Positions 1,398-3,205 of a DNA stretch of 39,467 nt are shown piece after piece. The notes under the pieces are model-generated. The model was not told the origin of the DNA. It made no database searches and worked only from the letters and a program-made list of their open reading frames with translations. A program made the position numbers and the translations under genes. How positions within the stretch are numbered: the stretch's first letter is position 1; the number at the start of each line of letters is the position of its first letter. Origin of the DNA: Verrucomicrobiota bacterium (GTDB lineage Bacteria > Verrucomicrobiota > Verrucomicrobiia > Chthoniobacterales > UBA10450). Location of the stretch: assembly GCA_003219465.1 (NCBI GenBank), contig QHOX01000127.1, positions 1 to 39,467 of the forward strand, written 5' to 3'.

Positions 1398-1463
1398 CAT
1401 TTCTTCTTGACGAGCTGCCAGGATTTTTTCCAAACTTCACGGTTGCTAAACGGATCTGAATCA

Positions 1464-1534
1464 GGCGGAGGACTTCCCCCGCTAGGTTCTGCGCCCCTTC
1501 CGGACCCGCGAATCGCAGAATCAATGCAGCGGGG
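1464..1534 (+). promoter_or_regulatory. Structured 5' leader RNA with two competing hairpins
   Basis: Two structures can be read directly. Structure A: CCCCGCT at 1477-1483 pairs with AGCGGGG at 1528-1534 (7 bp). Inside it GGTTCTGCG at 1485-1493 pairs with CGCAGAATC at 1514-1522 (9 bp, one G-U), leaving a 20-base apical loop and an asymmetric internal loop (A1484 against 1523-1527). Structure B: 1464-1471 folds back on 1476-1483 (GGCGGAGG with CCCCCGCT, one mismatch, loop ACTT). B uses the same CCCCGCT strand as the outer stem of A, so the two exclude each other. The 3' arm of A ends about 10 bases before the GGAAG ribosome-binding site of the gene at 1553. It resembles a cis-regulatory switch or a stability element. 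I could not match it to a known riboswitch class. Confidence 0.5.
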
Positions 1535-1552
1535 AAAAAGAAAGGAAGAACC

Positions 1553-3205
1553 ATGAATCCACTGCCTCAGTCCCAAAACACAACAATTCTGCCAGTTCTC
1601 ATCGCACTAACGCTAGGCTGCTTTGCGCTTTTGCCGACGGCGCGAGCACAATGTAGTAGTAGAGACGGCTGCGACCTCAGCAACTTCAACACGTTCCTGG
1701 GTGATAACGCGCTCGTGAGCAACACAACCGGCGACAGCAACACGGCAGTCGGTTATGTGGCGCTCTTTAGCAATACAACCGGGTTCCAAAACACGGCCAT
1801 CGGTTCTAATGCGCTCTTTAGCAACACAACCGCCTCTGGTAACACGGCCACCGGCTCCTTCGCGCTTGCGAGCAACACAACCGGCATTGGTAACACGGCC
1901 ACCGGTGATAGTGCGCTCACTTTCAACACCACCGGCATCCAAAACACGGCGATCGGTGATGGTGCGCTCGAACGCAACACAACCGGCAGTAATAACACGG
2001 CCATCGGTAATGTTGCGCTCTTTAGCAACACAACCGGCTTCGATAACGCCGCTGCTGGTCTTGGTGCGCTTTCTAGCAACACAACCGGCAGCAGCAACAC
2101 GGCCAACGGTTATGGAGCGCTCGCCAGCAATACAACCGGCATCCAAAACACAGCCAGCGGTTCTAATGCGCTTTTTAGCAACACAACCGCTTCTGGTAAC
2201 ACGGCCACCGGTGCCTTCGCACTCTCTAGCAACACAACCGGCTTAAATAACACGGCCGCCGGCCTTAGTGCGCTCACTTTCAACACCACCGGCAACGAAA
2301 ACACGGCCACCGGCACGTTAGCGCTCGATGCGAATACAACTGGCGGTGCGAACACGGCGACCGGTGCTTTCGCACTCGAACGCAACACAACCGGCTTCAG
2401 CAACACGGCAATGGGTTCTGAGGCGCTCACTTTCAACACCACCGGCAACAGCAACACGGCCACCGGTCTTCTAGCGCTGTTCAACAACACGACCGGCGTC
2501 GAGAACACGGCCAACGGGGCTAATGCGCTTTTTAACAACACAACGGGCAACAGCAACATCGCTGTGGGTAGCAGTGCCGGTATCAATCTCACCACAGGAA
2601 AGAACAACATCTATATCGGCAATGCCGGCATTAGCTCCGGTGAATCCGCCAAGATCCGCATCGGCACGACCGGCATTCAGAAGGCTACATTTATCGCCGG
2701 CATCAGTGGAGTGACTGTGCCGGCAGGGGTAGGAGTCATCGTTGGGACCGACGGCAAGCTCGGCACGGTCGTTTCCTCGGCTCGTTTCAAGGATGAGATC
2801 AAGCCGATGGACAAGGCTAGCGAAGCGATTCTTGCGCTTAAACCGGTGACCTTTCACTGCAAGCACGAGCTTGACCCCGACGGCATCCCGCAATTCGGGC
2901 TCGTGGCCGAGGAAGTTGAAAAGGTCAATCCGAACCTGGTCGTGCGCGACGCAGAAGGAAAACCCTACACCGTGCGCTATGAAGCGGTGAATGCGATGTT
3001 GCTCAACGAGTTTCTCAAAGAACACCGCACAGTGGAGGAACAAAAGGCGACTATCGCGCAGCTAAAATCTACGGTTGAAAAGCAGGAAGCGACAAACTCC
3101 GAGCAGGAAAAGCAAATTGAAGCGCTTACGGCGGGATTGCAGAAAGTGAGCGCCCAGCTTGAACTGAGCAAACCTGCACGGCAAACGGTTCTGAATGTTC
3201 AGTAA
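1553..3205 (+). CDS. Secreted NTATG-repeat protein with peptidase S74 autoprocessing tail
   Basis: This is the full-length paralogue (550 aa) of the gene to its left. The ATG is preceded by AAAGGAAGAACC, a good ribosome-binding site. Residues 1-33 are a signal peptide ending near ARA. From about residue 46 there are exactly 18 repeats of 17 residues (918 bp), then the NIYIGNAG cap. The S74 domain begins near residue 408 with SSARFKDEI; Ser408 and Lys413 match the known Ser/Lys self-cleavage dyad. The PQFGLVAEEVEKVNP and YEAVNAMLLNEFLKEH motifs are typical of S74. The C terminus is a likely coiled coil (TVEEQKATIAQLKSTVEK). Family knowledge gives trimer assembly followed by release of the S74 part. 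Role at the cell surface (adhesion or matrix) is inference. It has four more repeat units than its neighbour, indicating array length change. Confidence 0.9.
   Translation: MNPLPQSQNTTILPVLIALTLGCFALLPTARAQCSSRDGCDLSNFNTFLGDNALVSNTTGDSNTAVGYVALFSNTTGFQNTAIGSNALFSNTTASGNTATGSFALASNTTGIGNTATGDSALTFNTTGIQNTAIGDGALERNTTGSNNTAIGNVALFSNTTGFDNAAAGLGALSSNTTGSSNTANGYGALASNTTGIQNTASGSNALFSNTTASGNTATGAFALSSNTTGLNNTAAGLSALTFNTTGNENTATGTLALDANTTGGANTATGAFALERNTTGFSNTAMGSEALTFNTTGNSNTATGLLALFNNTTGVENTANGANALFNNTTGNSNIAVGSSAGINLTTGKNNIYIGNAGISSGESAKIRIGTTGIQKATFIAGISGVTVPAGVGVIVGTDGKLGTVVSSARFKDEIKPMDKASEAILALKPVTFHCKHELDPDGIPQFGLVAEEVEKVNPNLVVRDAEGKPYTVRYEAVNAMLLNEFLKEHRTVEEQKATIAQLKSTVEKQEATNSEQEKQIEALTAGLQKVSAQLELSKPARQTVLNVQ
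1688..2605 (+). repeat. Coding tandem repeat array, 18 units of 51 bp
   Basis: Exactly 18 x 51 bp encode the shaft of the second fibre protein. A higher-order period is visible: the units around 1801 and 2158 (offset 357 bp, seven units) share SNALFSNTTASGNTATG with nearly identical DNA. This suggests the array grew by duplication of a multi-unit block. Confidence 0.9.

Follow-up and report, generated by a model that had tools for sequence, protein, structure and literature searches.

The described systems closest to the element reported here are translational leaders that rely on a pseudoknot. SAM-II and preQ1-II are H-type pseudoknot riboswitches controlling the translation of metabolic genes, in which the Shine-Dalgarno (SD) sequence lies inside a pseudoknot strand, while the E. 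coli rpsO/S15 and alpha operon/S4 leaders are pseudoknots serving the autogenous control of ribosomal proteins by acting on 30S binding. RNA thermometers, such as FourU and ROSE, are generally known as structured 5' UTRs associated with surface-protein genes downstream. On the protein side, the prey-recognition fibres of Bdellovibrio are S74/endosialidase-chaperone fibres (PMC10769870).

The window, by which we mean the whole analysed stretch of 39,467 nucleotides, encodes an S74-type fibre protein of a bacterium, the kind of protein that the Bdellovibrio study (PMC10769870) is about; what is new here is the RNA leader. Comparative sequence analysis indicates that the leader upstream of the secreted-fibre gene is a real and previously uncatalogued folded RNA element, laid out as follows.

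1407..1436, plus strand: predicted promoter, TTGACG (1407-1412), an 18-nt spacer and CAAACT (1431-1436), with a predicted transcript start at about 1443
1443..1552, plus strand: leader RNA (5' UTR), member of a new RNA family, from matches of the R1 and R2 covariance models
1451..1460, plus strand: P1 5' strand CGGAUCUGAA, pairs with 1499-1508, with compensatory changes
1464..1473, plus strand: P2 5' strand GGCGGAGGAC, pairs with 1486-1495
1477..1484, plus strand: pseudoknot 5' strand within the P2 loop, CCCCGCUA, pairs with 1527-1534
1486..1495, plus strand: P2 3' strand GUUCUGCGCC, family consensus GUUCUUCGCC, pairs with 1464-1473
1499..1508, plus strand: P1 3' strand UCCGGACCCG, pairs with 1451-1460
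1509..1526, plus strand: loop L3, which crosses from P1 to the pseudoknot, with two near-invariant adenines just before the 3' strand
1527..1534, plus strand: pseudoknot 3' strand (C)AGCGGGG, just 5' of the SD, pairs with 1477-1484
1541..1548, plus strand: Shine-Dalgarno region AAAGGAAG, read from the sequence
1553..3205, plus strand: putative regulated gene, a secreted NTATG-repeat fibre of 550 aa with a C-terminal S74 chaperone domain

Like SAM-II and preQ1-II, this leader places a pseudoknot in the 5' UTR near the ribosome-binding site, with a U-rich loop 1, an A-containing loop 3 and a compact size of about 90 nt. Unlike them, it has P1 as a second helix, which includes an internal loop, precedes genes for secreted fibres, and has a 3' pseudoknot strand which stops at 1534 and does not contain the SD. 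Assignment to the SAM-II/preQ1-II type was rejected on the position of the SD AAAGGAAG, starting 6 nt beyond that strand, and on the corresponding Rfam models, which give no match. With the rpsO/S15 and alpha operon/S4 leaders it shares a 5'-UTR pseudoknot adjoining the ribosome-binding site, whereas the products here are predicted to be exported, which makes autogenous control unlikely. Its organisation suggests that it works like a translational leader, and we do not claim riboswitch membership for it. When the window and eight divergent loci were compared with Rfam 15 (4227 models), nothing besides tRNAs matched at the gathering threshold, the best sub-threshold match having an E value of 2.6; this bears out the remark of an earlier note, made from the window alone, that the leader fits none of the known classes. 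A literature search found no report of such an element, Rfam 15 serving as proxy for the large candidate-RNA paper of 2017 (10.1093/nar/gkx699). What the analysis contributes is a pseudoknotted RNA family that is well supported and not yet catalogued, together with a ready covariance model.

Used as a BLAST query, the leader recovers several diverged copies in its own genome, and 24 of 98 related genomes contain homologues, about 50 leaders altogether, of which 44 were aligned without structure (alignment A1). The covariance model made from A1, R1, comprises P1 and P2 only, the pseudoknot being left out, and matches 29 of the 35 genomes examined within the genus and six of the 14 genera of the family. 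A second model, R2, matches 50 of the 213 genomes of the order, all of them in the same family, and gives no match at 1e-4 in 287 other genomes sampled across the phylum, so that its false-positive rate is low. The two models match the window at 1449-1537 with 102 and 93 bits, respectively. Altogether the covariance model searches yield 138 distinct members, all within one family of soil Verrucomicrobia, with 14-17 confident copies in the genome from which the window derives; a further alignment, A4, contains 111 members and was built blind to the pseudoknot but fitted to P1 and P2. An exact pattern search of named genome contigs retrieved four Verrucomicrobia MAGs (AV37, AV_138, AV95 and AV16), and the attribution to soil is our reading of their scaffold names, which carry sampling depths in cm. 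The core pattern had no match in the viral contigs searched.

The conserved fold of the leader, as read from these alignments, is an H-type pseudoknot in which P1 is stacked on the hairpin P2; it was first recognised by eye and afterwards by count. The P2 loop CCCCGCU pairs with AGCGGGG just 5' of the SD; loop 1 of the pseudoknot is short and rich in U, and its loop 3 contains A. In P1, positions 1454 and 1459 are the sites of two conserved A.C mismatches, and P2 shows double changes at all 10 pairs in A4, its window copy containing a G.G mismatch at 1468/1491. Several unpaired bases are near-invariant: the P1/P2 internal loop has a C (0.95), loop 1 has two adjacent U residues (0.92 and 0.87), a G stands before the P2 3' strand (0.92), and L3 has its two adenines (model positions 77-78; 0.95 and 0.91 across A4). 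These unpaired bases and the two A.C mismatches are kept across divergent subfamilies whose helices change completely, P1 being replaced by GGCUCC/GGAGCC, P2 by CAGACAAAGGAC/GUUCUUUGUCUG and the pseudoknot by CCCGGU/ACCGGG.

Compensatory changes in the leader occur above chance, as is characteristic of a conserved structured RNA family. In the structure-blind A1, 91.2% of cells at the 26 pairs are paired and 11 pairs have double changes, none of 500 shuffles being as good; in A4, double-change cells number 306 against 127 in shuffles, and the signal is destroyed when the partners are slid. The pseudoknot, for which every alignment is unbiased, varies at pair 1482/1529 (CG 38, GC 21, AU 12, UA 9 in A4), is at least 6 bp long in 94 of 111 members, and is recovered without any alignment when loop-to-tail complementarity of own and swapped partners is compared (z 11.6). 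Because P1 and P2 guided the fitting of A4, it is the blind alignments that bear weight for these two helices. To handle relatedness among the sequences, which this and the swapping controls do in part only, we used a home-made tree-based null redistributing the changes of each column over the tree. P1, P2 and the pseudoknot exceeded it in percent paired and in double changes in every replicate, both in A4 and with one member per 80% cluster, and likewise in summed covariation in all replicates bar one for the pseudoknot. A1 is weaker on double changes alone (nulls as high in 7, 26 and 2 of 100 for P1, P2 and pseudoknot), the corresponding figures for percent paired being 0, 0 and 1 of 100. 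In a blind alignment of all 138 members, four of 100 nulls reach the pseudoknot in percent paired and summed covariation and none in double changes. Against a strict tree null no single pair is significant in a pairwise covariation test, although its five top-ranked pairs all fall within P1, P2 or the pseudoknot; the helix-level tests replaced it.

Folding energies contribute little in this context. The single-sequence fold is unremarkable at -45.3 kcal/mol (z -1.68), a stability that 13 of 200 shuffles equal or exceed, and RNAalifold returns P2 alone from A4; as the pseudoknot cannot be drawn by such programs, single-sequence and nested folding are uninformative. P1 and P2 (-20.9 kcal/mol) plus the pseudoknot duplex (-13.9 kcal/mol) roughly equal the best nested fold (-34.9 kcal/mol), the pseudoknot penalty not being counted.

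The leader occupies the position of a cis-regulatory mRNA leader, that is, a 5' UTR on the same strand as the gene and at a short, fixed distance from the ATG. The latter is found on the same strand 8-20 nt past the model end in 102 of 138 members, and the start codon mostly lies at 13-17 nt, with a mode of 16. A TTGACA sequence with at most one mismatch is present in 122 of 136 upstream regions, where about 31 are expected from shuffled sequence, mostly 34-43 nt 5' of the model start (aligned positions T.96 T.90 G.98 A.92 C.98 A.77), the -10 box being less conserved. Given this placement of the -35 box, transcription probably starts at P1, in which case the leader would constitute the whole 5' UTR. 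A plain sigma-70 scan did not call the promoter at 1407-1436, and the search for a terminator inside the leader found none. Two loci are natural leader deletions (L082, G007:C138:12340-12375, and L024, G000:C374), in which the promoter and start region are kept and P1/P2 are gone; L082 retains the part from GCGGGGAAAAAG to the SD.

Because the conserved pseudoknot ends beside the ribosome-binding site, the leader probably controls the amount of secreted proteins made, and we put at roughly 60% the probability that it is a cis-regulatory RNA through which translation initiation is controlled for a group of secreted surface proteins. Genes belonging to unrelated families are preceded by this same promoter and leader. 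Forming or melting of the pseudoknot would change the access of 30S to the adjacent SD, and a cellular signal, either a small molecule or an RNA-binding protein, may set the balance by recognising the unpaired bases that are conserved in loop 1, in loop 3 and in the internal loop of P1/P2. As to direction, a folded state that is OFF by steric block, though itself below even odds, seems to us somewhat more likely than a folded state that is ON in that the P2 3' strand is kept from pairing with the SD, which we consider rather doubtful. Several observations count against this reading: no conserved alternative fold was demonstrated, the SD lies outside every conserved helix, many S74 genes have no recognisable leader, and the downstream genes reveal no metabolic theme hinting at a ligand. 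More speculative still is the possibility of an orphan riboswitch or other signal-binding leader of new architecture, coordinating an entire set of fibres and propellers secreted by uncultivated soil Verrucomicrobia and spread as a cassette of promoter, leader and signal peptide attached to unrelated genes; the conserved unpaired bases are compatible with the binding of a riboswitch ligand, which is not proof.

The alternative that fares best is a constitutive 5' element devoid of switching, whereby the pseudoknot at the very 5' end shields the mRNA against 5'-end-dependent decay or leaves the SD free of structure as a standby or enhancer. With the predicted transcript start at P1 the fold would cap the mRNA, no conserved alternative fold has been demonstrated among the leader homologues, and the gene set encodes secreted, possibly abundant proteins; yet the conserved unpaired bases and the two A.C mismatches exceed the needs of simple stability, and we regard this explanation as unlikely, if a serious one.

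A sub-model of translational control, and thus not exclusive of it, has the pseudoknot-P2 fold compete with an anti-SD helix (1485-1492/1545-1552), such that the folded state is ON. The consensus GGUUCUUC and the GAAGAACC that lies 5' of the start codon are exactly complementary, the L132/L139 subfamily pairs GUUCUUU with AAAGAAC, and in the window the complementarity of 1485-1490 to 1547-1552 beside the start codon lends it weak support. The helix does not stand out clearly from controls, however, with z values of 2.3 and, on unique pairs, 1.6 against swapped partners, and a length of at least 6 bp in 44 of 86 members compared with 33 of 86 reversed strands; it is also missing from several subfamilies, so that competition of this kind seems improbable to us.

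An RNA thermometer, in which melting exposes the SD, was one of the possibilities raised by the earlier note and would suit a 5' UTR structure close to the SD with surface-protein genes downstream, as in FourU and ROSE. Unlike in those, no conserved helix sequesters the SD at 1541-1548, and the helix nearest to it is the G+C-rich pseudoknot, a duplex of seven mostly G-C pairs at about -13.9 kcal/mol; a thermosensor is thus very unlikely.

The same note had rightly placed a cis-acting structured leader just 5' of the ribosome-binding site, and had envisaged a switch between a long two-part hairpin and an upstream hairpin. All three of its helices can form at the given positions in the window: 1477-1483 (CCCCGCU) pairs with 1528-1534 (AGCGGGG), 1485-1493 (GGUUCUGCG) pairs with 1514-1522 (CGCAGAAUC), and the upstream hairpin 1464-1471/1476-1483, with one A.C mismatch, uses a strand common to the first. 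The long hairpin moreover appears in the minimum-free-energy fold of a 141-nt leader, partly since pseudoknots cannot be drawn. As a whole the element passes the covariation test on homologous leaders, but two of the three helices fail it. The first does covary; given that P1 and P2, which were absent from that reading, are strongly supported, it is a pseudoknot and not the base of a long hairpin. The second shows no covariation above the phylogeny-aware null, its summed value being lower than the mean of the nulls and exceeded by 143 of 200 of them, with 61-69% of cells paired (61% in that comparison), and the upstream hairpin covaries no better than the null. The mutually exclusive helices not both being conserved, we consider such a switch most improbable. 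Equally improbable is a DNA-level element, either an operator or a mobile repeat, which the multiple copies and the homologous promoter plus leader before unrelated genes would allow, but against which stand the frequent G-U pairs, common in P2, the minus-strand score of 20.7 bits against 92.8, the constant orientation and distance relative to the promoter and the start codon, and the covariation of the pseudoknot.

The genes downstream of the leader, as judged from their translations, nearly all encode products with secretion-like N-termini. The product of 1553..3205 matches Pfam PF13884 (E 1.5e-10, residues 408-463) and begins with a hydrophobic segment. Most are NTATG/S74 fibres, 65 of 113 downstream ORFs being NTATG-like by repeat pattern; Pfam/NCBIfam identify S74 and, in the remainder, GloVer-repeat, Kelch, collagen-like, TolB-like and arylsulfotransferase proteins, among others. 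Within the first 85 residues, 62 of the 65 NTATG-like proteins and 43 of the 48 others have a hydrophobic stretch of 9 aa or more that is free of charged residues. The leader type tracks the N-terminus, such that type B occurs with MYS/MYP starts in 9 of 10 cases and type C with MKTKTS in 9 of 12, these types being our own pattern groups; leader type and signal-peptide type going together, regulation and secretion signal appear to be inherited jointly. The expectation that other S74 genes would carry the leader holds in part: in the genome of the window, by coordinates, about 10 of 29 have a recognisable one while the rest do not, and the leader is hence not obligatory in this family. Three genomes (G023, G000 and G052) show a strong expansion of S74 domains, with 20-30 matches each. 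These data suggest that soil Verrucomicrobia, which have as many as 30 S74 matches per genome, coordinate their large repertoires of secreted surface fibres post-transcriptionally, and if a signal were found, the leaders would help to establish when such fibres are exposed by these uncultivated bacteria.

Some individual loci deserve mention. At L009 (G000:C23:9000-16500) three successive leader copies precede different ORFs, encoding an S74 fibre, a 144-aa protein and a YHYH-like, apparently frameshifted product; the leader of the 144-aa gene is 87% identical to that of the window, and the protein is unrelated. Two genes judged by eye to be vanadium haloperoxidase-like (L014, G000:C238, and L016, G000:C363) have no structured leader and share with the fibre genes the SD and the start MNSLTQLKK or MNPLTQFKK. 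L118, L157 and L174 represent a leader subtype whose P2 loop is enlarged, the L118 copy sitting before a calcineurin-like phosphoesterase that has no obvious signal peptide. Finally, positions 1-1352 of the window hold a second NTATG/S74 gene, which runs into the contig start, its own leader lying off the contig.
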